DNA of 36,555 bases from Patescibacteria group bacterium (GTDB lineage: Bacteria; Patescibacteriota; Microgenomatia; UBA1400; PJMF01): NCBI GenBank assembly GCA_018816385.1, contig JAHIVK010000028.1:1-36555 (forward strand), read 5' to 3'. Numbering within the stretch: the stretch's first letter is position 1; each line of letters opens with the position of its first letter. Positions 2,853 to 36,555 of this stretch are shown one piece after another. The translations under genes and the position numbers were made by a program. The notes beneath the pieces were generated by a model. The model saw nothing but the letters and a program-made list of their open reading frames with translations. It did no database searches and was not told the DNA's origin.

Positions 2853-3962
2853 CTATATAACTTCCATTGTACCAGCGTACATACCCATCGAGCAAGAAAA
2901 AGTAAACTTACCTTTGTTTTGAGGAGTAAAAGTGAACGATTGACTGTCGGTAGATCTGAGGGAAGCCTTAACACCATACTCTCTAAAAACAAAACTCAAG
3001 GCGCAAGAATACACGTCTTGACTCTTCAGAGTTAACTTAACTGGAACGCCTTTTTTCACCTTGACATAATTGGGTTGATAGCTTCGACTCAAAACGTTGA
3101 TGGTCACTTCCTGAACGCCTTCCGCAGTGGCTGTAGTTGAAGTTTGAGTTTTACTTTCTCCAGAAAAAATCTCAGTTACCGGTCGAACCAGGCGGTTAAT
3201 TGTCAGAGGTGAATCCATCACCAGCAAGACTCCGTTTAGGCTGTAAACAGCCATACCAATTAAAACTACTGATACAAATTTAGTAAATACCTTATACCAG
3301 CCCTCGCTTAATTTAGCTGTAGCTACTCCTAAGATCGCAAATAGAGGAAATGTTCCCAACACAAACGAAGCCATAATCAAAGCTCCAGTTATAGGCTGAC
3401 CTGAATTAATTGCCAACACTTCCATTGCCTGAGTGATACCACAAGGCACAAAAACTGTCATGAACCCCAACATAGCTGGAGCAAATAAAGCCTGACTTTG
3501 ACTAGAATTTTTAACCAAGCGACTCATAAATTTTGGTGGTTGAAAAACCACAAACCGAAATATGGGATGCACATTCAAAAGGTTCATGGCCGTGGCTAAC
3601 ATAAAAAGAGCCGTAAAAACTTGGAAGGCCAATCTCACCCCAAGACTTAAAGAAATGGCTGATCCCAACATTCCAAGTAAAAAACCTAAAATGGTATGTG
3701 AGGTTAGTTTGGCTAGTAAAAACATCAGAACTGGTTGCCAATCTAATTTATCAAAAGACTTTAAAGCAAAGTTTTTCTGCCCTAAAGATTTAAGATATTT
3801 TTCTTTCTTAGCATTTTTTTGTTTTTGCCGATCACTGACCAACTCGTCATGTTCTTGCTCTTTTTGGTTGGCAATCACACTTGTCAATAAGCCTCCTTGC
3901 ATAGCAATACAAGATATACCTCCAGTGGTTAAACCAATCAAAAATATCACAAATAAATTCAT
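2853..3962 (-). CDS. TauE/SafE (UreH-like) transmembrane domain fused to C-terminal cupredoxin
   Basis: Six or so hydrophobic segments (GGISCIAMQGGLLTSV, FVPCGITQAMEVLAINSG), then VTINVLSRSYQPNYVKVKKGVPVKLTLKSQDVYSCALSFVFREY...GKFTFSCSMGMYAGTMEVI cupredoxin signature. Confidence 0.87.
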   Translation of the reverse strand: MNLFVIFLIGLTTGGISCIAMQGGLLTSVIANQKEQEHDELVSDRQKQKNAKKEKYLKSLGQKNFALKSFDKLDWQPVLMFLLAKLTSHTILGFLLGMLGSAISLSLGVRLAFQVFTALFMLATAMNLLNVHPIFRFVVFQPPKFMSRLVKNSSQSQALFAPAMLGFMTVFVPCGITQAMEVLAINSGQPITGALIMASFVLGTFPLFAILGVATAKLSEGWYKVFTKFVSVVLIGMAVYSLNGVLLVMDSPLTINRLVRPVTEIFSGESKTQTSTTATAEGVQEVTINVLSRSYQPNYVKVKKGVPVKLTLKSQDVYSCALSFVFREYGVKASLRSTDSQSFTFTPQNKGKFTFSCSMGMYAGTMEVI

Positions 3963-3973
3963 GAACGACTTCC

Positions 3974-6202
3974 TTATTTAATATTGATAGTTTTAAGACG
4001 CAAAGCATTTAAGACTACGCTGACACTGGAAAAGGCCATGGCCGCTCCTGCCAACACGGGATTTAAGAGTATCCCAAACACAGGATATAAAGCTCCCATA
4101 GCCACCGGAATCAAAATTATGTTATATGAGAAAGCCCAAAACAAATTTTGTCTAATATTTCTCATCGTAGCTTGAGATAATTTCAAAGCTGTGGGCACTA
4201 AACTAATATCACTTCTGAGCAATGTAATGCCAGCTGATTCCATAGCCGCATCAGTCCCCCCGCCCATAGCAATGCTAATATCAGCGGTAGCTAAAGCCGG
4301 AGCATCATTGATCCCATCTCCCACCATAGCAATGACTGGATACTGCCCACGCAACTGTCTAATAGTCTTTTCTTTATCCGCCGGCAAAACTTCGGCCAAG
4401 ACCTGACTAATACCAACTTGACTGGCAATGGCCTTAGCCGTTTGCTTATTATCACCAGTTAACATGATACTGGTGATACCCATTTTCTGCAAAGACCGAG
4501 TGACAGCGGGTGAAGATTTTCTGATGCCATCGGCTATGCCAAACAAAGCTGTGACTTGACCATCAAGACTCATAAAAACCACAGTTTGACCTTTAGCCTT
4601 AAGCTGTTCAATTGTTTTCACAATTGCTTGAGGCAAAGCTACTTTGTGATCTTGAAGAAATTTCTGATTACCTATAAATACTTTTTGCTGATTGACCAAG
4701 GCTTTGACACCACTGCCACTCACATCTTGAAAATTGATGACTTGAAGTTTCTTTTTGCTACCCGAGTGTTCATCCGCCCAATTAACTAAAGCCCCAGCTA
4801 ATGGGTGATACGAAAGCTCTTCTACAGCTTTGAGAAGATTAGATATTAACTGCTTGTCATCAGAAAATAATTGACTTGTTTGAACAACTGGTTTACCTTC
4901 GGTCAAAGTTCCAGTTTTATCAAAAACTACAGCTTTGACTAGGTGAGCTGTTTCCAAAGATTGAGCATCTTTAATTAAAATACCCAACTTGGCTCCTTTA
5001 CCAATGCCTACCATCAATGAGGTAGGAGTGGCTAATCCCAAGGCACAAGGGCAAGCAATAATCAAGACATTAATCATGCTAATTAAAGCCGGCAAAAACT
5101 TAGGCTCAGGCCCCCACCACATCCACATCACAAATGTTAAAACAGCCAACCCGATCACTACAGGTACAAAATATGAGGAAATCTTGTCTACCAAGGCTTG
5201 AATAGCAGGTTTGGAACCTTGTGCTTGTTTAACCAAGCGAATAATATTGGCCAACATAGTTTGACTACCCACCTTGACAGCTTTCATTTGGATACTGCCC
5301 GATTGATTGAGAGTCGCTCCAACTACCAAGTCACCAACATGTTTGGCAATGGGCAGACTTTCGCCTGTAATCATACTTTCATCAACTGCAGTTTCGCCAA
5401 CCACCACCTCGCCATCAACTGGAATTTTTTGACCTGGTTTGACCAGCAATAAATCTCCAGGTTGAACCAGGTCAATAGGCACCTCTACCCAATCATTACC
5501 TTGTTTGATCCAGGCGGTTTTAGCTTGCAAGTTTAATAACTCTTTAATGGCTGATGATGTTTGAGCTTTAGCTCTAATTTCCAAGTATTTACCAAGCAGA
5601 ACAAAAGTAATAATGGCGGCTGAAGCTTCAAAATAAACGTGGGTGGTTAAACCTGCAGACATCAGTTGTTGACTAAAAATAACTACTGCCACTGAATAAA
5701 AATAAGCCACCGAAGTTCCCAAAACCACCAAGGTATCCATATTGGTGGTCAAGTTTTTCAAACCAGACCAAGCTCCCAGGTAAAAGCGCCGACCAGCCCA
5801 AAATTGAACTGGAGTGGTCAACAACCATAACAACCAAGGAGATCTCAAGATTTCTGGTAAACCTGGAATCATGCTGGAAATTAGTATCAAAGATAGCAAC
5901 CCGCTAACTATGACTTTAGTTTTAAGGGAACCGAGCTCCAAGGCTCTTTCTGTCTCAGCCACATCGCCAGCTTCATCTGTATGCAAATGAGCCGTATAAC
6001 CAAGCGAAGCCACAGCTTTGGTCAAATCTTCTTCAGAAGTTTGGTCTGAATTGAAAGTGACTGTGGCCTGTTCATTAGCATAGTTAACATTGGCCTCCGC
6101 CACACCTTTGGTTTTCTTTAACTTTCGCTGGATATTGCTGGCACAACTAGCGCAGTGCATGCCTGAGACATGAAAAGAAATGCTAGTGTCTTTATTTGAC
6201 AT
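3974..6202 (-). CDS. copA: Cu(I)-translocating P1B-type ATPase
   Basis: N-terminal HMA (GMHCASC), [14 protein letters not shown] (CPC), [49 protein letters not shown]. Confidence 0.97.
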
Positions 6203-6794: not shown

Positions 6795-7472
6795 ATGAAG
6801 GTATTAATCATCGAGGATGATCAAACACTAGCTCAAAATCTCAAGCAGGTATTGCAAAAAGATGGTTTTGCTATTGATATCGCTGTTTCAAAAGAAAATG
6901 GCTTGATAGAAATAGAAGTCAATGAATACGATTGCCTGATTCTGGATATAAATTTACCCGATGGCAGTGGTTTTGATCTGCTACGTGATTTGAGAAAAAT
7001 CAAAAATAAAACGCCCGTGATTATCTCCACAGCTCGGGGTCAGATTGAGGATAGAATTAAGGGATTGAATTTAGGAGCTGATGATTATGTGGCCAAACCA
7101 GTTGATTCGAATGAGTTAATTGCTCGCATCCGAGCTGTTATCAGAAGAAATAACAACAGCGTCCTACCCATCATTACTATTGGTAACTTAGTTGTCAAAC
7201 CAGCTCAACACTATGCCTCAATCAACAATCACCCTCTGACTCTAAATGCTAAAGAGTTCGCTGTGCTTGAGTACTTAGCCCAACATGGCGGTCAAATAAT
7301 TACCAGAACTATGCTCATGGAGCATATTTGGGGCAGTGATTTTGAAACTTTTTCTAACGTGATCGATGTGTATATTCGCAACCTCAGAAGAAAACTTGAA
7401 AAGTATTCACAACAAAATTTAATCAAAACCGTTCGAGGTAAAGGATATATTTTAGGTCATGATGAACAATAA
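6795..7472 (+). CDS. OmpR/PhoB-family response regulator (CopR/CusR-like)
   Basis: KVLIIEDDQTLAQNLKQVLQKDGF, DCLILDINLPDGSG, GADDYVAKPVDSNELIARIRAVIRR, C-terminal winged helix VIDVYIRNLRRKL...KTVRGKGYIL. Confidence 0.96.
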   Translation: MKVLIIEDDQTLAQNLKQVLQKDGFAIDIAVSKENGLIEIEVNEYDCLILDINLPDGSGFDLLRDLRKIKNKTPVIISTARGQIEDRIKGLNLGADDYVAKPVDSNELIARIRAVIRRNNNSVLPIITIGNLVVKPAQHYASINNHPLTLNAKEFAVLEYLAQHGGQIITRTMLMEHIWGSDFETFSNVIDVYIRNLRRKLEKYSQQNLIKTVRGKGYILGHDEQ

Positions 7473-8820
7473 ATTGTGGACAAAAACGATCAGCACGTTT
7501 AGAGGGCGATTAGTGCTCTGGTATCTAACGTCAGTTGGTTTAATTATTCTTCTCTTTTTCATAGCTGTGAGTGGATTATTTTGGGCAACTTTTCAAAACC
7601 AAATTGATCATCATATTCATATTGTTGTGAACGAAGCATATCAGATTGTCCAAAGTTACCATGGTCAAGAACGAGATACATTGATCAAAAATTTAGTCAG
7701 CGCTCAGGGAATGACAGTCATTGTTTTATCTCCCGATGGGGCACCAATTTTGGAAACCAATAGTCCAGACGTAGCATTAATCACAGAACACCAACTACAA
7801 AAACTCTTAACTTCTAGTAGTCTTCATAGTTCAACTCCAACTCACTTTACCGAAAGCAATATTCGCTTTGCGGCTCGACCAGTTCAAGTTAATGCTGGCA
7901 AAGGCGTGGTGGCAGTTGGTTATTCTACGCGAATCCTATATGCCACATTTTATAAAATGCTGGGCATTGCCATAGCTGTGATTATTTTTCTAGTTTTTCC
8001 GATTACCTTTTTAGGCTACAGATCGTTAAAAAAACAACTTCACCCTTTGGAAAGTATTGCTGACCAAGCCAAATCAATCACCGACACATCATCTCTTTCT
8101 CAAAGAATCAATATCACTTCGGCTACTCAAGAACTAAACACAATTCAAGAAGCGCTTAATACTATGTTAAAGAGACTTGAAAAAATATTTAAAAGTGAAC
8201 GAGAGTTTTTTTCAGATGCCGCCCATACACTCAAAACTCCTCTAGCCGTACTGCGATCTCAGTTAGAAAACACTGCTATAACTCAAAAATTAAGGGGTGA
8301 ACTCATTAAGACTGTTGATACAACCAACGATACCATTCAGGATCTGCTATTTCTTTCACAACTTGGGAGAATATCACAAAGCATTGAAGTATTTTCCCTG
8401 TCTACTGTCATGGCTAATCTATCTGAGCTAGCTATGACATTGGGAGAGGATAGTCGTATTAAGGTTGTTTCAGATATTCAATCAGATGTTCAATTTAAAG
8501 CAGATAAAAAATTACTGCAGAGAGCTTTAAGTAATATTGTTCACAATGCCATTGTCCACAATCAATCTGGAGGCACAATCAGTCTCAACTTAATAAAAAA
8601 ATCCAAACACATTATTATCGTAATTCAGGATACTGGTATTGGCATATCTGAGCGCGATTTACCCAAAGTTTTCACCCGTTTCTTCCGAGGATCCAATGCC
8701 AAAAATCAAGGTTCTGGATTAGGTTTGGCAATTTCTAAAATAGTTATCGAAAATTGTGGAGGGAAAATGATTCTTGAATCAAAAATCAACGAAGGTACTA
8801 CTGTCACAATAACTCTTTAA
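7459..8820 (+). CDS. Sensor histidine kinase (two TM, HAMP, HisKA, HATPase)
   Basis: FFSDAAHTLKTPLAVLRSQLE (H-box), VHNAIVHNQSGG (N-box), DTGIGISERDLPKVFTRFFRG, GSGLGLAISKIVIENCGG. Overlaps RR stop. Confidence 0.95.
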   Translation: MMNNKLWTKTISTFRGRLVLWYLTSVGLIILLFFIAVSGLFWATFQNQIDHHIHIVVNEAYQIVQSYHGQERDTLIKNLVSAQGMTVIVLSPDGAPILETNSPDVALITEHQLQKLLTSSSLHSSTPTHFTESNIRFAARPVQVNAGKGVVAVGYSTRILYATFYKMLGIAIAVIIFLVFPITFLGYRSLKKQLHPLESIADQAKSITDTSSLSQRINITSATQELNTIQEALNTMLKRLEKIFKSEREFFSDAAHTLKTPLAVLRSQLENTAITQKLRGELIKTVDTTNDTIQDLLFLSQLGRISQSIEVFSLSTVMANLSELAMTLGEDSRIKVVSDIQSDVQFKADKKLLQRALSNIVHNAIVHNQSGGTISLNLIKKSKHIIIVIQDTGIGISERDLPKVFTRFFRGSNAKNQGSGLGLAISKIVIENCGGKMILESKINEGTTVTITL

Positions 8821-8915: not shown

Positions 8916-8949
8916 TTTCATCTTCACTTCATCTTAATTCTGGTAATCT
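8916..8949 (+). promoter_or_regulatory. Direct-repeat regulatory site 1 plus -10-like TAATCT
   Basis: TTTCATCTTCACTTCATCTT, 8 nt (AATTCTGG), TAATCT; repeat period 11 bp. Confidence 0.65.
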
Positions 8950-8985
8950 ATCGACAAATCTTAATTGATTTTTAGGAAAAAAACT

Positions 8986-9993
8986 ATGACTAGTCAGAAA
9001 GCATCAAGTACCAAAAGGAGAAATATATGGCAAATATTCCTTGAGGAAACTCAAAAAATAAGTTTTTGGAAAAGAACGGCTCTAATTTTGTCTGCAATTG
9101 TCATTCTAACTCAAGTTTTTGATGTTTCTATTACTCCGAAAGTTGCTTTATCAACCAATTCACTTATTAAGCAATCAGGTAAAGTTCCTCAGGCTCCAGC
9201 ACAAAGTGACACGGTTGAAACTGGAGCGATTGACACTGCTCTGCTGACCAAAGCCGTTTTGCCAGAAGAAGGAGTCATTCTGCCTATTGTCTGGGGTGAC
9301 TTGGGAAAACGCATGACTACCGATGGGGTGATTGATGAACAAAAATTTAGAGCTTTGTTTGAAGGTGGTTTAAATAACGTCGAAGAACAAATGTTATCAG
9401 GTAATAACACTCAGCCAATTGTTTTAAATGGGCAGAATAGTCGTTACTTGTTAGATCTATTATGGGCATTTGGATTAGCCAACAAAAACGACATTCTTGA
9501 AAACGGTGAAATGACAGATGAACAGTATGGAGGCGCGGGCAATTTTGCCTCAACTGGTGGTTGGTCGTTATCAAAAGGAGTAGGTTTTGATCACTATAGC
9601 CAACATGCTTATGTCACCTTGTCTCCAGAACAACAGGCGCTAGTGGACAAAGTATCTCGGGGTATATTTAGACCTTGTTGTGGTAATTCGACGCACTTTC
9701 CAGATTGTAATCACGGCATGGCCATGTTGGGATTACTTGAGTTAATGGCCAAAAACAATGTTTCTGAACAGGAAATGTACAACATTGCCCTCAAAGTCAA
9801 TTCCTTCTGGTTTCCACAAACATATATTGATTTAGCTACCTACTTTAAAGAACAAGGTCATGATTGGGACCAAGTTGATGCCAAAACAGTCTTAGGTACA
9901 GAATATTCCAGCGCCCAGGGTTATCAACAAACTCGCCAACAAATTCGAAGCTTACCCAAACCTCAACAAGGCGGCGGCGGATGTGGAGCATAA
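8986..9993 (+). CDS. Membrane-anchored Cys-rich protein, CCG...CxHG family, C-terminal GGGGCGA
   Basis: One N-terminal TM (FWKRTALILSAIVILTQVF), IFRPCCGNSTHFPDCNHGMAMLGLLELMAKNNVSEQEMYNIALKVNSFWFP, end QQGGGGCGA. ATG 8986 preceded by AGGAAA, preferred over TTG 8965. Confidence 0.85.
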   Translation: MTSQKASSTKRRNIWQIFLEETQKISFWKRTALILSAIVILTQVFDVSITPKVALSTNSLIKQSGKVPQAPAQSDTVETGAIDTALLTKAVLPEEGVILPIVWGDLGKRMTTDGVIDEQKFRALFEGGLNNVEEQMLSGNNTQPIVLNGQNSRYLLDLLWAFGLANKNDILENGEMTDEQYGGAGNFASTGGWSLSKGVGFDHYSQHAYVTLSPEQQALVDKVSRGIFRPCCGNSTHFPDCNHGMAMLGLLELMAKNNVSEQEMYNIALKVNSFWFPQTYIDLATYFKEQGHDWDQVDAKTVLGTEYSSAQGYQQTRQQIRSLPKPQQGGGGCGA

Positions 9994-9997
9994 CTTA

Positions 9998-10792
9998 ATG
10001 AATAATCGACTAACCCACTCACTTCAAAAGTTTTTTTGGCAACTGGTAACCATATTTGGACTGGTCATCTTGTTGGCCAGTCCCATCACTTCAGCCCTAC
10101 AAGCTGTTGGATCGAAACAAGGCATAGCTGTCTTCAACATAGTGGGCACTGTTGAAGCTAAAGAAATCTACCCCATGTTTACTTGCCCGTGCTGTGGTAA
10201 GCCTCTGGATAAAGAAGATCCGTGTTGTGGGTCAATGACTCAAATGATTGATTTCATCGATCAAAAAGTTAGTACTGGAGCCAACGAAAATGAGGTGATA
10301 CTAGCCACTGCCCAAGAGTTTGGTCTAGAGCGATTAGCTGACGAATCGCAACGCATAGGGCTCCACGAACAACTGCTAGCTAATGCTCCACCAGATGCAC
10401 CTAGAATAACTGTTTTGGAAACCAAAAAAGACCTAGGCATCGTCAGTCAAACAAAAGGCATTATCTCCACTGAATTTGTAATCAAAAATGAAGGCAAGTC
10501 TGATTTAATAATTAACAAACTTTCTTCCTCTTGTGGTTGTACATCCGGCAGCCTGGTGTATCAAGGCGTGGAAGGTCCTAAGTTTTTCATGCCCGGACAT
10601 GGTCAAACTGAACCCGATCCCAACTGGCAAGTTGCAATTGCTCCTGGAAAAGATGCTCAAGTTAGAGTCTATTACGATCCCACAGTTCATCCCGATCTAA
10701 CTGGTCCAGTCACTCGGACCGTTTCGGTTCATTCTAATGATCCAGTAGATTTTGAAACTCAGTTTACAATTACTTTAGATCAGGAGAAATAA
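9998..10792 (+). CDS. DUF1573 protein with N-terminal CcmH-like Cys domain
   Basis: YPMFTCPCCGKPLDKEDPCCGSMTQMIDFIDQKVSTGANENEVILATAQEFGLE, then DUF1573 signature DLGIVSQTKGIISTEFVIKNEGKSDLIINKLSSSCGCTSG. Confidence 0.88.
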   Translation: MNNRLTHSLQKFFWQLVTIFGLVILLASPITSALQAVGSKQGIAVFNIVGTVEAKEIYPMFTCPCCGKPLDKEDPCCGSMTQMIDFIDQKVSTGANENEVILATAQEFGLERLADESQRIGLHEQLLANAPPDAPRITVLETKKDLGIVSQTKGIISTEFVIKNEGKSDLIINKLSSSCGCTSGSLVYQGVEGPKFFMPGHGQTEPDPNWQVAIAPGKDAQVRVYYDPTVHPDLTGPVTRTVSVHSNDPVDFETQFTITLDQEK

Positions 10793-10794
10793 TT

Positions 10795-11340
10795 ATGAAT
10801 CATGATTGTTGTAATCCATCAAACAAAAATGTGGTTAAGAAAGGAGGCATGGATTCATTTCTATTCGGAATTATCGTTGTAACAGTGTTAATACTTGGAG
10901 TAGCCATTTTCTTTGGCATAAAAATGGGCGCTACCTCACAGGTGACGGCTGATACTCAAGTTACTTCATCAGTCGATTCAAACAAATTTGATTGGGGAAC
11001 TATAGATATTAATGATGGCATTGTTTCCAAAGAATTTGTCATACAAAATACTAGCAATTCAACACTTAAAATTTATGATGTGACAACTTCATGCATGTGT
11101 ACCACAGCTCAACTTAAAACTTCCCAGGCTACTTCAAAAAAGTATGGCATGCATGAGAAATCAGCTGATGTCTTTGAGGTAAAACCTGAAGAAACGGCTC
11201 AATTAATAGTTGAGTTTGATCCAGCTTTCCATGGCCCCAGTGGAGTTGGACCTATTAATCGAACTATCACCATGCGAACCAATGACACCAACCATCCTCA
11301 ATTATCGTTTAATCTAACTGCAGTAGTAGTTAAAAAATAA
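10795..11340 (+). CDS. DUF1573 membrane-anchored protein
   Basis: KFDWGTIDINDGIVSKEFVIQNTSNSTLKIYDVTTSCMCTTAQL; one N-terminal TM. Confidence 0.88.
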   Translation: MNHDCCNPSNKNVVKKGGMDSFLFGIIVVTVLILGVAIFFGIKMGATSQVTADTQVTSSVDSNKFDWGTIDINDGIVSKEFVIQNTSNSTLKIYDVTTSCMCTTAQLKTSQATSKKYGMHEKSADVFEVKPEETAQLIVEFDPAFHGPSGVGPINRTITMRTNDTNHPQLSFNLTAVVVKK

Positions 11341-11350
11341 AAAGTTTGGT

Positions 11351-12094
11351 ATGAATAGAAAATTTGTTATGATTGGAGTACTGATGATAGTTGGACTAAG
11401 GTTTGGCTGGTACTCAATTAATTCCAACAATAATAACGATTCTGTCGACACCAAAGTTAATCAGAATAGTAATATTGCCCTGATTTCTCCCCAAGTCTTT
11501 GCCGAACTGGCACAAAATGAGCAAGCATTTATTTTGGATGTCCATTCTCCAGAACAAACACATATCCCAGGTACCGACGCTTTTATACCTTATGATCAGA
11601 TTAAAAAGAATCTAGATCAGTTACCAACTGACAAAACAACCCCCATCCTAGTTTATTGCCGATCTGGTGGTATGAGCGCAGGCGTGGCTCAAGAGTTAGC
11701 CACCCTTGGTTATACTCATATCTATGATCTTCAAGGTGGCGTCAATGCCTATCGAGAGAGTCGTGTCAGCGTTGCTCTAACTCCCAACACCAGACCACTG
11801 GGAACAGTCATTTATGGCGATGTAGCTACTACTACCTTTACTTTGACTAATTTCACACCCCTGCCTACCAAAATTACCAGAGTATCTACTTCGTGTGGTT
11901 GTACTCAAGCTTCAGTTGAAAAAGAAGAGTTAGGCGCCTATGAAAGCACCACTGTTAATGTCTCATTTGATCCCGCTGTCCATCAGGACGATAGCGATTT
12001 AGGAGACTTAACCAGAACCATTTACATTGAAACCAATAATCCTAACTTTCCAGAATTAGAAAGTACCATCACCGCCACGGTCATTAAAAAATAA
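11351..12094 (+). CDS. Rhodanese domain fused to DUF1573
   Basis: AFILDVHSPEQTHIPGTDAFIPYDQI...PILVYCRSGGMSAGVAQELATLGYTHIYDLQGGVNAYRE, then GTVIYGDVATTTFTLTNFTPLPTKITRVSTSCGCTQA. Confidence 0.93.
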   Translation: MNRKFVMIGVLMIVGLRFGWYSINSNNNNDSVDTKVNQNSNIALISPQVFAELAQNEQAFILDVHSPEQTHIPGTDAFIPYDQIKKNLDQLPTDKTTPILVYCRSGGMSAGVAQELATLGYTHIYDLQGGVNAYRESRVSVALTPNTRPLGTVIYGDVATTTFTLTNFTPLPTKITRVSTSCGCTQASVEKEELGAYESTTVNVSFDPAVHQDDSDLGDLTRTIYIETNNPNFPELESTITATVIKK

Positions 12095-12099
12095 CCAAC

Positions 12100-12957
12100 A
12101 TGAATACTTTATTTCAACTGTCACTCTTAGCTTCATTTATGGCTGGTATGGTAGCTCTTTTTGCTCCATGTTGTATTACTTTTCTTTTACCATCTTACTT
12201 TGCCAATGTTTTTAAAGAAAAAAAACGAGTTGTGTTAATGACTTTTATTTACTCTCTAGGGATATTTACCGTCATGATGCCAGTGGTGTTAGGAGCTAAG
12301 GCTTTAACACAAATGTTTGCCAATTTACATGATCAGACATACATTATTGGTGGTTTATTTTTGATCTTTGTGGGTCTTTCAACTCTCCTGGGATTTAAAC
12401 TCCCCATGCCTCGCTTTAACTTTACTAAACAAGCGGACGATCCTCTTTCAACATATATTTTGGGTGTCTTATCAGGCATCAGTAGCGCCTGCTGTGCCCC
12501 TGTTCTAATTGGAGTACTGGCCTTATCAACTCTCAGTCCCACCATGGTTCAATCTTTACTCGTGGGATTTTTCTATGTTTTAGGTATGGTTACTCCTCTC
12601 TATTTAGCCAGCTTATTTATAGATAAACGCAACCTACTAGAAAAGCCACTATTTAGAAAGCCATTTAGAGAAGTGAGTTTATGGGGTAAAACACACATGA
12701 TTACTGTGGCCAATATGATTTCTTTTGTGGTGTTTGTGGGGATGGGAGCATTAATTATTTTTCTTTCTTTAGCCGGCAAACTAGCTATGAATCAAAGTGA
12801 AAAAAATGTCACTCAAACGATTCAATCCGTAGCCGTTTCAACAACGTCATTTGTCCAAAAAGTTCCAGGATTAGACATAGGTTTTGTGATAATTGCCAGC
12901 TGGCTACTTTATAAATTCATCAGGTATATTGGCCAAGATAAAAAGTTAAATAATTAA
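12100..12957 (+). CDS. CcdA-like cytochrome c biogenesis / thiol:disulfide transport membrane protein
   Basis: SFMAGMVALFAPCCITFLLPSYFA and GVLSGISSACCAPVLIGVLALS paired Cys/Pro TM motifs. Confidence 0.88.
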   Translation: MNTLFQLSLLASFMAGMVALFAPCCITFLLPSYFANVFKEKKRVVLMTFIYSLGIFTVMMPVVLGAKALTQMFANLHDQTYIIGGLFLIFVGLSTLLGFKLPMPRFNFTKQADDPLSTYILGVLSGISSACCAPVLIGVLALSTLSPTMVQSLLVGFFYVLGMVTPLYLASLFIDKRNLLEKPLFRKPFREVSLWGKTHMITVANMISFVVFVGMGALIIFLSLAGKLAMNQSEKNVTQTIQSVAVSTTSFVQKVPGLDIGFVIIASWLLYKFIRYIGQDKKLNN

Positions 12958-13481
12958 CATCCTTGACTGACATCGCAAATATAATCTAGCAATTGTTGTT
13001 GATCTAAAAAACCATAGGCTGGAGGTTCTTCCACTCCATTAGCCGTAAAAATAAATGTAGGGACACCAGCCAGGCTATAATTTTGAGCATCCTGAGCGCA
13101 AGAATTTATCTCATACCATTCTCCATAAAAAAGATCGCCATATTCAGGTAAGATTTGGTCTAATACTTCATTTTGAAAAACACAAAAGAGACATGTTTCC
13201 GAAACAAATAATTTAAACTTTAAGCGCGCGTCTGGATTGCCAGCCACTATATTGGGACAACTTGTATCTCCCAAAACATTTTTCTGACTAAATTGCTGGA
13301 CAACTACTCTCGGAGGACGATCTGTACTTGTTTTAATTTGGACTATATCTTGACTGGTATTTTTGATACTTAAATTTAAATAGACATTAAAACCAATAAA
13401 AAAGCTGGCTAAGATTACTAATAACAAAGGAGTTTTGTTAATAATTTGTTGATCAGTCCAAATAATTTTAGGTAAACTCAT
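12954..13481 (-). CDS. Membrane-anchored thioredoxin/DsbA-like protein
   Basis: LFVSETCLFCVFQNEVLDQILPEYG...YSLAGVPTFIFTANG (CLFC and cis-Pro loop). Start trimmed to ATG 13481; the 13742 extension lies inside the ccdA-like gene. Confidence 0.87.
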   Translation of the reverse strand: MSLPKIIWTDQQIINKTPLLLVILASFFIGFNVYLNLSIKNTSQDIVQIKTSTDRPPRVVVQQFSQKNVLGDTSCPNIVAGNPDARLKFKLFVSETCLFCVFQNEVLDQILPEYGDLFYGEWYEINSCAQDAQNYSLAGVPTFIFTANGVEEPPAYGFLDQQQLLDYICDVSQGC

Positions 13482-14155
13482 ATCAATAGTGCCCAAAAAG
13501 CTAAATAGATTAAATAAATACCTGCCAAAAGAATCAACACGCCAGTACTTTTTTGGATTACCTCCATATATTTGGTTAAAAATCTGCGCATTGCACTCTT
13601 TGAAAAAGACGAAATAATCGAAAATAGAATCATCAACATTGACATAGCCAAAGCATAAACTGCAAAATTGATGACTCCTCCGAATAGACCATTTTGAGCT
13701 AACGATTGGAAAATAACTAACAGAAATATCGGCAAAGTACACCCCAATGCCCCAAAAGCATAAGCCACACCAAAGACATAAAATCGCTTTAATCCATGCG
13801 CATTAGTCTGGATCACAATTGGAGGTTTGATAGCAAATTCATAACCGAGCAGGATGGATAATCCCATGAATATCAGCAGGCCTCCCGTCATCAATTCGAT
13901 CCAGGGGAATATAGGAGCAATCCAGTGACCAAAAATAGCTAATAAAATCCCAAATACCACATAAACACTGATCAGCCCCAAGCTAGCAAGACTACCTGCT
14001 TTAAAACCAAAAAGTAGTTGTTGTATTTTGTTGCTCTGTCCAGTTTCTTGTTTAACATAGAAACCTACATATGCTGGGATGAGGGCGATACTGCACGGGG
14101 CGAAAAATGCTTGCAGACCAGCCAAAAACGAGAAAGTAATTAGGATTTTATCCAT
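13478..14155 (-). CDS. CcdA/DsbD-like membrane protein
   Basis: SFLAGLQAFFAPCSIALIPAYVGFYV; VAYAFGALGCTLPIFLLVIFQSLA. Confidence 0.88.
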   Translation of the reverse strand: MDKILITFSFLAGLQAFFAPCSIALIPAYVGFYVKQETGQSNKIQQLLFGFKAGSLASLGLISVYVVFGILLAIFGHWIAPIFPWIELMTGGLLIFMGLSILLGYEFAIKPPIVIQTNAHGLKRFYVFGVAYAFGALGCTLPIFLLVIFQSLAQNGLFGGVINFAVYALAMSMLMILFSIISSFSKSAMRRFLTKYMEVIQKSTGVLILLAGIYLIYLAFWALLI

Positions 14156-14262
14156 TATATTTTCACCAAAATACCAAATAAACCTATCCTCTACATTAAT
14201 TATTGATTCAATATGAAACTGTCAGTCATAATAACTAGAAGAATATCAGTCATAATAGTCAC

Positions 14263-14985
14263 TCATATATTTATTCCATGTCTCCCTTCAGTTCCCGATC
14301 CACCATGTGCGGTGTGAGGTAGTGCACCCTCATTACCAGTCATTAATAAATAGTCTTCGAGCATACCTTTGGGATACCAAAGGGCATACCAACGGTGAGA
14401 CTCACCAACTAGTTGTTCATCACTATATTGATCGCCGTAGTTTTGAATCATATAACGATAAAAGCCTCGAACTGCCTTAGCGTGAGCGCAACCACAATTT
14501 TTAACCATAGTTACATTGTTAGGTCCACCACAACAATAGCTACAGGTCATTAATAAAGTCACAAGTTTTTGATATCGAGCCTCTTCTTCTGTTTGTAATC
14601 TGATCGATGTTTCATAGACTCCCCATTTCTTTTGAGCATTAATTGGATCGTCAAAAGAGATATTATCGGGAGCATAAAAAGGTTGACCTGTGGCTGTCAT
14701 CACCACCTTGGCATCGGCCAAGGCGTCACCACTCTGAGGACTAGCCATAACTTGGGAAATAGTTGACCACTCAAACAATGAGGTAGTCTTACCATCGGCA
14801 TTCAATTTTGGAGCGATGATGGTCATTGAGGTGCTATTTTTCATACCCATAACCATGGTCACATTGGCAATCATTAATTGATTGAGTAAAAAAATAATTA
14901 TCAACAACCAAACAAAAACATTTGCCGGCGGTGTAGCTCGAGATTTTTTATAGGCAATGAATAATTTATTAATGATGTGCTTCAT
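14263..14985 (-). CDS. Membrane-anchored Cys-rich protein, second CCG...CxC/H family member
   Basis: N-terminal TM, LLMTCSYCCGGPNNVTMVKNCGCAHAKAVRGFYRYMIQNYGDQYSDEQLVGESHRWYALWYPKGM, alignable with 8986-9993. Confidence 0.83.
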   Translation of the reverse strand: MKHIINKLFIAYKKSRATPPANVFVWLLIIIFLLNQLMIANVTMVMGMKNSTSMTIIAPKLNADGKTTSLFEWSTISQVMASPQSGDALADAKVVMTATGQPFYAPDNISFDDPINAQKKWGVYETSIRLQTEEEARYQKLVTLLMTCSYCCGGPNNVTMVKNCGCAHAKAVRGFYRYMIQNYGDQYSDEQLVGESHRWYALWYPKGMLEDYLLMTGNEGALPHTAHGGSGTEGRHGINI

Positions 14986-14999
14986 ACTATATAATTCAC

Positions 15000-16199
15000 T
15001 TATTGGACAGAACTTGGATTTGGCACTTCTACAGGATTAATGATTTGATTACTTGCTAAATCCTTGTGAGTAACTTTTCCAAGTTGATTCATGACGGTAA
15101 AGATATACCAACCATCGGGTCCCACCACACCAACGCCCGGCCAATCTCTTTTAAGATTTGGATATTTATCAACCTCTGGAGATAATAAAATTGTTGGCAC
15201 TTTGGTAATGTCATACATGGCAACCAGATTTTTTCCTTCTGCAGAAGAAATATCTATTTCACGCTCCGAACGTATGGCAACTCCGTATCCATTAGTTAAA
15301 ATTGGGTATTGAACATCCTGAACTTTATAGCAATCAACACAACTTGAGTCTATTAAATATATCAAATCGACAAACCCAACAATTTCGTTCTTCTCTAAAT
15401 CTCGGTATGGAAATATTAAATTCCGAGCTACATATGTTTGATCTTGCTCAACTGTGCCAAGTTGAGTCCAGTTAGATTTGATATCATCATATAAATCAAT
15501 CTCGGGTGATAAAAGAAAAGTAGGTATTTTTAAAATCTTATATTGTTTTATAATCTGCTGACCCTCAAGGGAGTTCCAAATAACTTCTTTTTGATCAATA
15601 ATTTTGACTCCAGACTGTTTTAAACTTTCCACCATTAATTTAGGGTCAACGCATAGAGGACATGAGGGATCGGTTAAAATGGTAGCTACAACTTGGCCAA
15701 CTTTTTGTTTACTATCGGGATCGATATAAACTGGAGTGACTTTGGTAAAAACAAAAGTATCATCCTGGACTTGACCTTGGCTTTTCACAAAGTTCTCAAT
15801 ATTACTTTTAGTGAGTTCACCAGTCACCAAAAATGTGGGAACTTTTTTGATAGCAAATTGTAAAACTTTCTCATTTGCCTCAGGAGAATCAAAGATTAAG
15901 GTTTGCTCTTCTTCTATTTTAATATTCAGTTTCTTAAAATCATCGACAATCCTGTCTATATTAAAACAATCAACACAGTCGGGAGTAGTGATTTTGATAA
16001 TCTTGACGTTGGCAGGACGACTTACTTCTTTTGTCAGCTCTATATTTTTATTCACGTCAGCCAATGTTTTTGTAGAAAAAAGGACTCCCACAATCGTCGC
16101 TAAAAGAGAAAAACCCAGCAACATCTTTAACCAAGGTAAATATAATTCCTTTTTGGAAGCATTATTTCTGATGCTGAATCCGCTATCTATCTTATTCAT
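15000..16199 (-). CDS. Secreted/anchored protein with three tandem thioredoxin-like domains
   Basis: Three units: TTPDCVDCFN...KKVPTFLVTGEL; TDPSCPLCVD...LKIPTFLLSPEIDLY; IDSSCVDCYK...TKVPTILLSPEVDKY. Start trimmed to ATG 16199. Confidence 0.85.
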   Translation of the reverse strand: MNKIDSGFSIRNNASKKELYLPWLKMLLGFSLLATIVGVLFSTKTLADVNKNIELTKEVSRPANVKIIKITTPDCVDCFNIDRIVDDFKKLNIKIEEEQTLIFDSPEANEKVLQFAIKKVPTFLVTGELTKSNIENFVKSQGQVQDDTFVFTKVTPVYIDPDSKQKVGQVVATILTDPSCPLCVDPKLMVESLKQSGVKIIDQKEVIWNSLEGQQIIKQYKILKIPTFLLSPEIDLYDDIKSNWTQLGTVEQDQTYVARNLIFPYRDLEKNEIVGFVDLIYLIDSSCVDCYKVQDVQYPILTNGYGVAIRSEREIDISSAEGKNLVAMYDITKVPTILLSPEVDKYPNLKRDWPGVGVVGPDGWYIFTVMNQLGKVTHKDLASNQIINPVEVPNPSSVQ

Positions 16200-16221
16200 A
16201 AGTTTGAAACATCTGATATCT

Positions 16222-16515
16222 TTAGCATCCTCCCACCATCGATTGCGGTACTGCCACATCAGAATTGCTTCCCATGTCAGACGATCCACTGCTTGAAGAA
16301 ACTACGGCCGGCGGTTGAGTAGCCTTGGCCAAAAAAGAACTGGCCCTAGAGCTAATTCTTGTCAATTGAAAGGTCTGAAAAAGAGTGATAATGGCAATTA
16401 ATCCCAAAACCATAACTTGTAAATTCGGTTTAGGAATACGCAAAACCAAGGCTTGATCGTCTTTTTTTACTTGTCTTTCTTCGATAGAAGAATTTATTTG
16501 TGATAATTTAGTCAT
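16222..16515 (-). CDS. Small single-TM protein ending in GGC
   Basis: NLQVMVLGLIAIITLFQTFQL TM, Ser/Gly linker, C-terminus VPQSMVGGC; first gene of minus-strand thiol operon. Confidence 0.7.
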   Translation of the reverse strand: MTKLSQINSSIEERQVKKDDQALVLRIPKPNLQVMVLGLIAIITLFQTFQLTRISSRASSFLAKATQPPAVVSSSSGSSDMGSNSDVAVPQSMVGGC

Positions 16516-16561: not shown

Positions 16562-16722
16562 CAGACTTACTCTCGAAATGATAAACAAGTTGATTATGGA
16601 AAGATTTTTTGACATTTTCGTTGTTTCTGATAGTAGCCCATCATACTTGAGGAAGAAGAAGTAATCGAAAATGCACAAAAGAATCACGGGCAACCCGCTT
16701 CCCTTATTTCGAGAGCAAGTCT
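16562..16722. repeat. MITE-like element copy A with terminal inverted repeats
   Basis: Left AGACTTACTCTCGAAATGA (16562-16580); right end reverse complement AGACTTGCTCTCGAAATAA (16704-16722), 17/19 identical; internal sequence matches copy B. Confidence 0.75.
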
Positions 16723-16756
16723 ACTGTAGCAAGATGAAAATGAAGAGAAGATGAAA
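16723..16756 (-). promoter_or_regulatory. Direct-repeat regulatory site 2 plus -10-like TACAGT
   Basis: Minus strand TTTCATCTTCTCTTCATTTT, 8 nt (CATCTTGC), TACAGT. Confidence 0.6.
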
Positions 16757-17134: not shown

Positions 17135-17449
17135 TTAGCAACAACCGCCTTTATGCTTACCTCTTTGTTTTTCTTTTTCATGTTCTTTTTTGCCTAAGTT
17201 ATATAGATACCTACCTATGAAAGATTTAGATGGCTGATCGGAATTTTTCATTTCTTTATTTTTATCTTCATCTCCATGACACCCGCAGCCGTGAGACATC
17301 GAATGATCGTAACAACCATGTCCACCGTTTTTTTCTATTTCGTCCAACGGTACCAAATCCATACCGCCACACTTGGGACATTTACCGGGTTTGTCTGACA
17401 CAATCTCGGGGTGCATGGGACAAGTGTATTTTTTATCGTTGTTACTCAT
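17135..17449 (-). CDS. Heavy-metal-binding domain protein with Cys/His-rich tail
   Basis: YTCPMHPEIVSDKPGKCPKCGGMDLVPL (HMBD), HGCYDHSMSHGCGCHGDE, C-terminus KHKGGCC. Confidence 0.85.
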   Translation of the reverse strand: MSNNDKKYTCPMHPEIVSDKPGKCPKCGGMDLVPLDEIEKNGGHGCYDHSMSHGCGCHGDEDKNKEMKNSDQPSKSFIGRYLYNLGKKEHEKEKQRGKHKGGCC

Positions 17450-18596: not shown

Positions 18597-19049
18597 TTAT
18601 AATTGCCAAATAAAAATCTCTGATTTATTATCTACCCCATCAAATGTTACTGTCAACTCCTTAGGCTGTTTGGAAAAGGGTGGAAAGATCAACTCTCCTT
18701 TAATGTGGTGGCCGCCGGTGGCTCTTTTCCACTCAGACGGTTTGTAAGTATTTCCCTGATCGTCGGTTAAAGTAGCAATTCTGATATAGTCATAACCCAA
18801 ATCAACTGAATGATTATTCATGACTACATCAAAAACAATATCCTTACCTAAAGTCACTGAAGCGGGTGTAACCTCAACTTCAACCAGACCCATTGTTTTG
18901 GTTTGTGGGGATAATCCAGAGAGTTGAGTGCCGGTCTGGGTATTTGGCGAAGCTGTTGTCGAAAGCCCTTGTTTTGGCTTTGCTGTTAACCCAAAGACAA
19001 CCGCACCAGCAAAAACAAGTAGAATGACGAAAAATAGTTTTGAGTTCAT
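18597..19049 (-). CDS. Secreted/anchored protein of unknown function
   Basis: Signal anchor KLFFVILLVFAGAVVFGL; beta-rich VEVEVTPASVTLGKDIVFDVVMNNHSVDLGYDYIRIATLTDDQGNTYKPSEWKRATGGHHIKG. Confidence 0.7.
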   Translation of the reverse strand: MNSKLFFVILLVFAGAVVFGLTAKPKQGLSTTASPNTQTGTQLSGLSPQTKTMGLVEVEVTPASVTLGKDIVFDVVMNNHSVDLGYDYIRIATLTDDQGNTYKPSEWKRATGGHHIKGELIFPPFSKQPKELTVTFDGVDNKSEIFIWQL

Positions 19050-19564
19050 AGAGCCCTCCTGACTTTAGTAGAAAAAAAGCTAAATAGAACTTTTGGCGTG
19101 GCTTTTCCAGTCATGAACCAAAGCATCATGGTGATGCCAATTGCATTTGCGACGACTCCAAAGATGAGCAATTGTTTCTGGTATTCAGAAAGAAAAAGAG
19201 CTGTCGCCGATAAGCCCAGAATGGGGAGAAGCTCAACTAGATGATGAGCACAACAAGCCACCATCGCCATGCCAGAAACGGCCGTACTTGTCTCAGTTGC
19301 CAGTTGAACATCGTGTCTTTCGTGAATGGAGAAGTGATAGCCTTTCCTAAGTAACCAAAATAACCCAAATTGGATGCCAAAACCAATGATCAGTAAACTC
19401 ATCCAGGGCTGAAGAAGGGTAAACTGACTAAAAGGATGGTTTGGATCGCCAGTAATTGCAAAAAGGAGAATGTAGTAAAAAAGACTGAGACCCAAAATGC
19501 CTACTATAAAGCCTTGGAGAAAAATAAAAAATGTAGGCTTTTTGTCTGTACACTTATGCTTCAT
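19046..19564 (-). CDS. Multi-TM membrane protein with ACCAHH motif
   Basis: VSGMAMVACCAHHLVELLPILGLSATALFLSEYQKQLL; 4-nt overlap with downstream CDS. Confidence 0.75.
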   Translation of the reverse strand: MKHKCTDKKPTFFIFLQGFIVGILGLSLFYYILLFAITGDPNHPFSQFTLLQPWMSLLIIGFGIQFGLFWLLRKGYHFSIHERHDVQLATETSTAVSGMAMVACCAHHLVELLPILGLSATALFLSEYQKQLLIFGVVANAIGITMMLWFMTGKATPKVLFSFFSTKVRRAL

Positions 19565-23101: not shown

Positions 23102-25120
23102 TTATACTTCTAACTTTGCCTTACGCAGTGACATGGCATTAATCACCACAATCACGGAAGACATACTCATTAGAAGTGCTCCAACAGCGGGAGTGAGCCT
23201 AAAACCAAACGGAATAAATAGTCCGGCAGCCGCTGGAATAGCCAAGACGTTGTACCCAACAGCCCAAAACAAGTTTTCCACCATTTTGCGATAGACTTTT
23301 CGGGAAAGGATAATCAATCTCACAATGTGCTGAGGATTGCTTTGCGTCAGGACAATGTCTCCAGCCTCTACAGCCACATCTGTGCCTGTGCCTATGGCCA
23401 CCCCCGCATTAGCTTGGGTCAGCGCGGGCGCATCGTTAACTCCATCACCAGCCATTAAGACAATATTACCTTGATTTTGTAATTCTTTGATGTGCTTATA
23501 TTTATCTTCCGGTAATACTTCTGCAAAAATCATATCGATACCAAGTTGTTTGGCGATCGTGGCGGCGGCCGCTTTGGTATCGCCGGTGAGCATTGCCACT
23601 TTAACACCAAGTTTATGCAACTCATCTACAGCCTGTTTTGATTCTGCCTTAACTTGGTCACTTAAAGAAATAACCCCTAGTAAACTATCTTTACTCGCTA
23701 CAAACACTGGCGTTTTACCTTCGGTTGATAATTCTTTAAGAACCTTTTCTGTTGCCGAATTCCAAACCTTGAGTTCCTCCATCAGTCGTTTGTTACCAAT
23801 AAAATACCTTTTTCCAGCAATCATGCCTTCCATACCCCGACCGGCTAAATTTTTAATGTTAGTCGCCTCCTTGAATTTAATACCCATTTTTGCGATATGG
23901 TCTGTTATTGACATACCAATCACATGAGAGGAGTGGGTTTCAATTGCGTGAGCTATTTCCAAGAGGTGAGTTTGCGAGCCATCAAACAACTTTATATCTG
24001 TGACACCAAAGTCTCCTCGTGTAAGTGTGCCTGTTTTATCAAATACCACATAGTCAGCACTTTTAACAATTTCAATCTTTGCCATGTCTTTGATGAACAC
24101 ACCATTTTTGACGGCTAAACGAGTAGCAATAGTTGAAACGGTGGGAATGGCCAAACCCAATGCGTGAGGACAAGCAATCACCAACACAGTAATGGCCAGA
24201 GTGGTGGCAAAAACCAAAGGTTGCCCAATCACAACTGACCAAATAACCAAAGTTAAGACAGAAACACCCAGAGCCAAGAAAGTGAGCCATCTGGAAGCCC
24301 GGTCTGCCAGTTTTTGAACTGATGGTTTCGTTTGCTTGGCAGAAGCAATCAGGCTTTGAATCTGGCCAATAGTTGAGGATTCACCGACGCGCATCAATCT
24401 AACTTCAACTGAGCCATCGATATTAATTGCTCCAGCAACTACAGAAGACCCAACTATTTTTTCAACTGGTTTAGACTCTCCAGTGATGTGGGCTTCGTTG
24501 AAGTTGCCACTCCCTTTGAGTATTTCTCCATCAGCCGGCACTTTTTCACCGGCTTTAACTACCACAATATCTCCTTCTTTGAGAGAGGTTAATGCTACTT
24601 CCTTGATTCCGTGATCTGTTTTAAGATGAGCTTCCTTGGGCAAAAGCTTGGCCACTTCTTGTAAAGCGTCCCCAGCGGCAGTTGAAGATTTAGCTTCCAA
24701 AAAGTGACCAAATAATAAAACCCAGATTAGAGTGGAGATTTCAAGATAAAACTCAGTACTGATAGCAGGAATAAAAGTTGACATGGCCGAAAAAAGATAA
24801 CCGGCTCCAACTCCTAACGAAACGAGAGTCATCATGCCATACTGCTTCATGGCAATTTCCATTTTTGCGTGCTTAAAAAAAATCAAGCCAAAATAAAAAA
24901 TAATGGAAGCGATGCCAAACTCCAAAAAAGGTCGTAAAACAAAATCAGGAGTACCCAAAAACTTGACTGCTGGCTCAGAAAAAAATGCTAAGGGAACAAG
25001 CAAGATGGAAACAATTAAGAATCGACGCAAAAAATCACCCGAAGTCTCTGGGTTGGCCATCAGATCGTGGTGATCATGACCAGCATGATCAACAGTCTGG
25101 TGGTTGTGATTCTGATTCAT
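23102..25120 (-). CDS. copB: P1B-type ATPase, CopB-like (CPH motif)
   Basis: His-rich N-terminus [83 protein letters not shown]. Confidence 0.95.
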   Translation of the reverse strand: MNQNHNHQTVDHAGHDHHDLMANPETSGDFLRRFLIVSILLVPLAFFSEPAVKFLGTPDFVLRPFLEFGIASIIFYFGLIFFKHAKMEIAMKQYGMMTLVSLGVGAGYLFSAMSTFIPAISTEFYLEISTLIWVLLFGHFLEAKSSTAAGDALQEVAKLLPKEAHLKTDHGIKEVALTSLKEGDIVVVKAGEKVPADGEILKGSGNFNEAHITGESKPVEKIVGSSVVAGAINIDGSVEVRLMRVGESSTIGQIQSLIASAKQTKPSVQKLADRASRWLTFLALGVSVLTLVIWSVVIGQPLVFATTLAITVLVIACPHALGLAIPTVSTIATRLAVKNGVFIKDMAKIEIVKSADYVVFDKTGTLTRGDFGVTDIKLFDGSQTHLLEIAHAIETHSSHVIGMSITDHIAKMGIKFKEATNIKNLAGRGMEGMIAGKRYFIGNKRLMEELKVWNSATEKVLKELSTEGKTPVFVASKDSLLGVISLSDQVKAESKQAVDELHKLGVKVAMLTGDTKAAAATIAKQLGIDMIFAEVLPEDKYKHIKELQNQGNIVLMAGDGVNDAPALTQANAGVAIGTGTDVAVEAGDIVLTQSNPQHIVRLIILSRKVYRKMVENLFWAVGYNVLAIPAAAGLFIPFGFRLTPAVGALLMSMSSVIVVINAMSLRKAKLEV

Positions 25121-31103: not shown

Positions 31104-31200
31104 CTGAGTTAATTGTATAGACTTTAATACAAACAGTAAATCACTTCACTCAACACTATCCGAGCTCGCCATTGAAAAACAGTTAATTATTGGTTATATT

Positions 31201-31282
31201 AAGCTTAATTGCGAAATAAGGGAAACGGTTACCTATGCCATCTTTTATAATTAACTCATTTCTTATTTCGCAAGGCAAGTCT
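31201..31282. repeat. MITE-like element copy C (short)
   Basis: AAGCTTAATTGCGAAATAAG at left; inverted AGACTTGCCTTGCGAAATAAG at right; 5' half GCGAAATAAGGGAAACGGTTACCTATGCCATCTTTTAT matches copy B. Confidence 0.7.
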
Positions 31283-36419: not shown

Positions 36420-36555
36420 AGACTTGTCGCGAAATAAGGGCAATGGCTACTTATGGCATCTTTTATGCATTTTCTTTGCTTCTTCTTCCTCAAGTAGCTG
36501 AGGCTACTATCGTCATCAGAATCAACGAAAATGCTATAAAATCTATCCATAATTA
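36420..36555 (+). repeat. MITE-like element copy B (right end beyond window)
   Basis: AGACTTGTCGCGAAATAAGGG...TGCATTTTCTTTGCTTCTTCTTCCTCAAGTAG...CTACTAT...CAGAATCAACGAAAATG...AAATCTATCCATAAT aligns with copy A over its length. Confidence 0.72.

Follow-up and report, generated by a model that had tools for sequence, protein, structure and literature searches.

Two convergent operons of a Patescibacteria genome as a probable copper-linked extracytoplasmic thiol module

The contig JAHIVK010000028.1 (assembly GCA_018816385.1, Patescibacteria group bacterium; 36,555 nucleotides, all of which were analysed and are here called the window) harbours two convergent operons, at 8986-12957 on the + strand and at 16515-12954 on the - strand, which overlap by 4 bp (12954-12957). 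We consider it likely that they form a copper-induced extracytoplasmic thiol/Cu(I)-handling module with a logic like that of the Scs system, built around CcmH-like helical proteins with a C-terminal cysteine (Cys) tail. This proposal is based on the gene content of the operons, their conservation, their linkage to copper genes, a repeat shared by both promoters, the homology of two of the encoded proteins (CCG1 and CCG2) and the absence of cytochrome c maturation in the source genome (1.0 Mb, 97.5% complete). The open reading frames (ORFs) and families of the two operons agreed with the thiol proteins listed in an earlier sequence-only reading:

8965..9993 (ATG start 8986), + strand: CCG1, membrane-anchored and probably exported, with invariant RPCC.N...F.DCNHG.A and a C-terminal GGGGCG tail
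9983..10792, + strand: DUF1573 protein with an N-terminal CPCCG...PCCG CcmH-like helical domain
10795..11340, + strand: DUF1573 protein with N-terminal MNHDCC and a membrane anchor
11351..12094, + strand: rhodanese-DUF1573 fusion, membrane-anchored, with a CRSGGMS loop and SCGCT
12100..12957, + strand: CcdA-like membrane electron carrier with vicinal Cys pairs (PCC, ACC)
12954..13481, - strand: thioredoxin-like protein with CLFC, membrane-anchored
13478..14155, - strand: second CcdA-like carrier, DsbD_2-like, with Cys in PCS and GCT
14263..14985, - strand: CCG2, a homologue of CCG1, with CSYCCGG...CGCAH
15000..16289, - strand: triple thioredoxin-like protein (CVDC, CPLC, CVDC)
16222..16515, - strand: 97-aa membrane protein ending in PQSMVGGC

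Export and topology were judged from N-terminal hydrophobic helices, without a dedicated predictor.

The CCG1 and CCG2 proteins

The two CCG proteins (342 and 240 aa) both carry the CCG...C.H motif, as had been noticed previously, and HHalign comparison revealed that they are homologous (94.6%, E 7e-8; unrelated controls reached at most 12%). CCG1 had no sequence match in Pfam, NCBIfam or PDB, and thus no known family of these databases was found for it. The PCYCGC-type lipoproteins (PF13798) were considered as relatives, but no CCG1 member matched them in Pfam at E 0.1, a profile comparison not having been made. R-P-C-C, N, F and D-C-N-H-G were invariant in 50 aligned CCG1 members, and the Cys of the C-terminal ...GGGGCG was 96% conserved. 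In the AlphaFold model, the CCG1 domain is largely helical (predicted local distance difference test, pLDDT, about 98), preceded by one N-terminal helix, presumed to be a membrane anchor, and followed by a disordered tail. Foldseek aligned this model with the periplasmic domain of the thiol-oxidoreductase CcmH (2HL7; TM 0.63 of the target, root-mean-square deviation 2.0 over 60 columns, E 5.7, prob 0.38), which appears to be the only fold match of CCG1 that makes sense. CCG2 reached an HHalign value of 30% against the CcmH profile. The CcmH family (PF03918) was matched in Pfam by none of the three CC-motif proteins, and their Cys spacing differs from LRCxxC.

CCG2 was present in 10 genomes of an even draw of 288 Patescibacteria. 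It occupies the gene slot of CCG1 (DUF411-c20-c12-CCG2-3xTrx-ATPase in locus L133 vs. DUF411-c20-c12-CCG1 in locus L146; 3xTrx, triple thioredoxin-like protein). The two proteins are normally found in separate genomes, and occur together only in the source genome among the 288. CCG2 has its own terminal MVGGC or MIGGC in seven other genomes, whereas in the window and the two relatives nearest to it the MVGGC tail sits on the separate 97-aa protein. At locus L128 (6563-7963, + strand) CCG2 is apparently in frame with an upstream membrane protein bearing GCPVCG, a possible fusion. The membrane families c12 (CxxC, terminal CC) and c20 (AHCPLC), for which no Pfam or NCBIfam model was matched, precede CCG1 or CCG2 in many loci (L079:1703-2143, L095:3736-4311).

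DUF1573, CcdA-like and thioredoxin-like proteins

Three window proteins exceeded the curated Pfam cut-off for DUF1573 (PF07610), and the rhodanese loop CRSGGMS was intact in the fusion, both as the sequence-only reading had it. A CcmH-like domain, also claimed for the first of these proteins, was supported, although remotely: its N-terminus reached 49% against the CcmH profile (HHalign; unrelated controls at most 15%), and AlphaFold confidently models three helices behind its Cys loop. The fold search with this protein was dominated by its immunoglobulin (Ig) domain. Most island DUF1573 proteins (window 10795-12094 and relatives) have a conserved Met, often as M-x-x-H, and FDP..H beside C-x-C; judging from these residues, C-x-C, Met and His are a plausible Cu(I) ligand set. 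DUF1573 is also known as a selenoprotein in which UGC replaces CGC (PMC9312934), and the existence of this form points to a reactive first Cys.

The assignments of the CcdA-like and thioredoxin-like proteins combine weak hidden Markov model scores with motifs. The CcdA-like protein at 12100-12957 (+ strand) scored 24.3 bits alone against PF02683 (cut-off 27.1), exceeding the cut-off when counted with its neighbours in the frame, and the one at 13478-14155 (- strand) scored 21.6 bits against PF13386, below the cut-off of 24.9. Both keep Cys at the two expected membrane positions (PCC/ACC and PCS/GCT, respectively), as expected of the electron carriers proposed before, and no extra domain was matched in these proteins of 225-285 aa. 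Elsewhere in the genome, PF02683 was matched only by a thioredoxin-like/CcdA fusion on contig C33. The triple thioredoxin-like protein (429 aa) has exactly three CxxC sites (residues 105, 210 and 317), in agreement with its earlier description, and is thioredoxin-like by weak matches. The same applies to the CLFC protein (TIGR00411, E 2.6e-6, below its cut-off), which had been called DsbA-like; a DsbA identity was not established. The Cys residues of the CCG, CcdA and DUF1573 proteins are near-invariant among relatives. A literature search returned nothing on CcdA together with copper in Patescibacteria.

Conservation and linkage to copper genes

The window encodes two copper ATPases and a further member of the same island:

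3974..6202, - strand: CopA-type Cu(I) P1B ATPase with an HMA domain and a CPC motif
23102..25120, - strand: CopB-type P1B ATPase with a CPH motif
2853..3962, - strand: DsbD_2-cupredoxin fusion

In GTDB genomes, 405 relatives of CCG1 were detected, of which the best 80, almost all from Patescibacteria, were surveyed together with the window (81 loci) using a simple ORF caller. A P-type ATPase was found near CCG1 in 59 of the 81 loci, DUF1573 in 49, a two-Cys membrane protein in 34, a CsoR-family protein in 28, SHOCT in 28, two CcdA types in 27 each, and a response regulator and a kinase in 18 and 17 respectively. CxxC...CC proteins, DUF411, cupredoxins and TlpA/AhpC-like proteins also recurred. 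These neighbours mostly lie less than 3 kb away on the same strand, and the ATPases carry CPC or CPH motifs. Where the flank was long enough (52 loci), CcdA or DUF1573 was present within 5 kb in 43, and a copper-linked gene in 44. Among the 288 sampled genomes, 28 had clear CCG1 matches; DUF1573 was present in 23 of these 28 compared to 20 of the 260 others (Fisher 1e-17), and a Cu-ATPase in all 28 compared to 158 of 260 (Fisher 3e-6). Dozens of genomes show this gene set around homologues, which makes it more than a chance assembly. The co-location with copper ATPases described for the window thus extends to the loci of its relatives, and the conservation across Patescibacteria that the sequence-only reading had proposed to check was observed.

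CCG1 homologues from other classes of the phylum are up to 61-70% identical to that of the window, compared to 41-46% within its own order, and two genomes of the same family lack CCG1, which suggests horizontal spread. A 7-kb contig titled Thermodesulfovibrionia (L060) bears a typical patescibacterial island, which may reflect misbinning or transfer. In 18-19 loci, CCG1 has beside it a conserved pair (window 19046-19564 and 18597-19049, - strand): a membrane protein whose CCAH motif is near-invariant, and a DUF5643-like protein carrying GGHH.

Promoter repeat and two-component genes

An 11-bp direct repeat, TTCATCTT-N3-TTCATCTT, lies upstream of both operons, in accordance with the shared promoter motif reported earlier, and heavy-metal-type two-component genes precede the + strand operon:

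8917..8935, + strand: promoter element upstream of CCG1, exact repeat (motif search)
16737..16755, - strand: promoter element upstream of the second operon, 1 mismatch
6795..7472, + strand: heavy-metal-type response regulator, the presumed binder of the repeat (best NCBIfam match cztR_silR_copR, below cut-off)
7459..8820, + strand: heavy-metal-type sensor kinase (best NCBIfam match cztS_silS_copS, below cut-off)

The repeat had 6 matches at up to 3 mismatches, compared to 1.25 expected, and is conserved ahead of CCG1 in relatives. At up to 2 mismatches, the 21 loci that have two-component genes (331 kb) contained 29 matches, and the 80 loci that lack these genes (1.21 Mb) contained 4; these loci are mutually related and the counts are not independent events. 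In 27 of the 29 cases, the repeat lies within 350 bp of the start of a same-strand gene, mostly an island gene. A direct repeat that travels with two-component genes is what one would expect of an operator of the OmpR family, and on this basis the response regulator is presumed to bind it. An ArsR-YHS regulator is also among the genes upstream of the + strand operon.

A HMBD heavy-metal-binding protein (window 17135-17449, - strand) carries YTCPMHPEI and ends in GGCC. Several island proteins (c12, c13, the second DUF1573 protein and the CLFC protein, which ends in QGC) have a Cys pair or a terminal Cys at one end or the other, perhaps a common handle. Long imperfect inverted and direct repeats connect intergenic regions of the window (16593-16756, 31195-31248 and 36429-36553), possibly as a small mobile element.

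Alternative explanations

CcdA and CcmH-like parts normally bring to mind cytochrome c maturation, of which the operons could be a leftover or a complete pathway. However, the source genome, at its 97.5% completeness, had no match to the heme-lyase family PF01578 (CcmF/CcsA; ResB, PF05140, was not searched), to cytochrome c (PF13442) or to COX1, and CxxCH was present in no window ORF, the motif check covering the window only. Moreover, none of the 288 Patescibacteria reached the PF01578 cut-off. The lack of CxxCH proteins in the window noted by the sequence-only reading was borne out, and the finding that was to refute its proposal, a complete maturation pathway with c-type cytochromes elsewhere in the genome, did not emerge from these searches. 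We reject cytochrome c maturation, which is extremely improbable here, and regard the module as independent of it.

The rhodanese makes a persulfide (sulfane-sulfur) relay the main rival: the exported rhodanese-DUF1573, CCG and CcdA proteins would make or carry persulfides, for example for reactive sulfur detoxification or for an extracellular precipitation of copper as sulfide. The listed fusion copies have an intact rhodanese loop, DsrE-like and DUF302 proteins are among the neighbours, a CcdA-like protein weakly matches TsoB (a rhodanese/DsbD fusion), and the ArsR-YHS protein, among specific regulators, matches the sulfite sensor BigR best (63 bits, below cut-off). Nevertheless, the rhodanese fusion is restricted to a subset of the islands, mainly those with two-component genes, and is absent from most, while copper ATPases recur throughout; we consider this relay unlikely. 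The selenoprotein form of DUF1573 fits either a copper module or persulfide chemistry. Copper supply to an exported copper enzyme, in place of defence, could explain the cupredoxin-fused DsbD_2, the cupredoxins and the DUF1573 Ig domain, which resembles the Cu(I) metallochaperone 3zk0 in fold, among many other Ig folds. By contrast, the partner genes are export ATPases and metal-type regulators. COX1 is not associated with CCG1 among the 288 genomes either (1/28 vs. 19/260, p 0.7), and as the source genome has none, supply to an oxidase is disfavoured. A supply route in general seems quite improbable.

Some results weigh against the copper-induced thiol/Cu(I)-handling module itself. The CcmH fold match of CCG1 has an E of 5.7, and CCG1 showed no sequence profile similarity to CcmH (HHalign 0.5%), leaving direct sequence homology unsupported and the fold hint in place. 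The response regulator and kinase score under their NCBIfam subfamily cut-offs, C-H-H stands in place of the Cu(I) triad C-H-C in about two thirds of the CsoR-family repressors that are linked, and the rhodanese, DsrE-like and DUF302 neighbours are compatible with sulfur chemistry too. The most likely metal of the module is Cu(I)/Ag(I).

Proposed mechanism and comparison with known systems

For the thiol/Cu(I)-handling module, we infer as follows how the metal would induce it, how electrons would flow, how Cu(I) would be bound and in what order transfer would proceed. The CopRS-type two-component system would sense the metal and activate both operons via the 11-bp direct repeat, while CopA and CopB would export Cu(I) from the cytosol. 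The anchored CCG1 and CCG2 would face outward, their CcmH-like helical domains exposing a C-C...C-x-H(-Met) site. A flexible tail, ...GGC(G), would follow at the C-terminus; for the CCG2 of the source genome, the 97-aa protein would supply it. The DUF1573 proteins would present C-x-C with the conserved Met and His, and the CCG and DUF1573 thiols would take over the Cu(I) delivered by the ATPases. Because thiols of this kind are oxidised by copper and oxygen, electrons would be needed, moved outward from the cytosol by the CcdA-like carriers and passed on by the thioredoxin-like (CLFC, triple thioredoxin-like) or the DUF1573/rhodanese proteins. Once reduced, the CCG sites might serve as Cu(I) binders or shuttles or in the repair of exported proteins, and the CC site could receive Cu(I), or else a disulfide, from the tail Cys. 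The sequence-only reading had proposed that the relay reduces or metallates exported Cys-rich metal-binding proteins; the cytochrome c independence, copper co-location, conservation and promoter motif on which it drew were supported, but the action on other exported proteins falls outside the supported parts, and the CCG proteins themselves may be the copper-handling products. More tentatively, CCG1 and CCG2 could represent a new family of exported, CcdA-reduced Cu(I)/thiol shuttles combining a CcmH-like domain, a CC...C.H(Met) site and a swinging, splittable GGC tail.

In the Scs system (ScsABCD), ScsC is maintained in its reduced form by ScsB, and each of the two binds Cu(I) (PMC8900818). 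The island resembles it in combining a DsbD/CcdA-type membrane reductant with a putative thioredoxin-fold partner in a probable copper tolerance context, but no ScsB alpha/gamma domains were matched in the CcdA-like proteins, its central proteins are of the CCG and DUF1573 families and not ScsC-type, and it belongs to Patescibacteria and is linked to two-component control. CcmH is a membrane-anchored protein with a short Cys loop and a three-helix bundle (PMC3884852). The 2HL7 fold match of CCG1 and the remote profile signals of the DUF1573 N-terminus and CCG2 recall CcmH/NrfF (PF03918, System I), whereas CC...C.H in place of LRCxxC, the C-terminal Cys tail, the copper neighbours and the lack of PF01578 heme lyase and PF13442 cytochrome c matches set the island apart. 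With CcdA-ResA/StoA (System II type) it shares the pairing of a CcdA-type carrier with exported thioredoxin-like proteins, but it differs in the vicinal CC at both membrane sites of one carrier, in the metal-type regulon and in having no PF01578 CcsA match. Compared to the DUF1573/OS_HP2 (seleno)protein family, to which three island proteins belong by cut-off and C-x-C motif, the island versions add the conserved Met and His, CcmH-like or rhodanese fusions and the copper context.

With these operons, CCG1, an undescribed and very strictly conserved family, emerges as central to the copper islands of roughly one in ten sampled Patescibacteria. The operons also suggest that copper handling may draw on thiol chemistry of the CcmH type, with electrons supplied by CcdA, without any cytochrome. 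If CCG1 and CCG2 are indeed CcmH-like shuttles, the CcmH fold would have a copper role independent of heme. The split C-terminal Cys tail offers a clean mechanistic handle, and the hard-to-culture Patescibacteria would gain a concrete extracytoplasmic redox/metal system.

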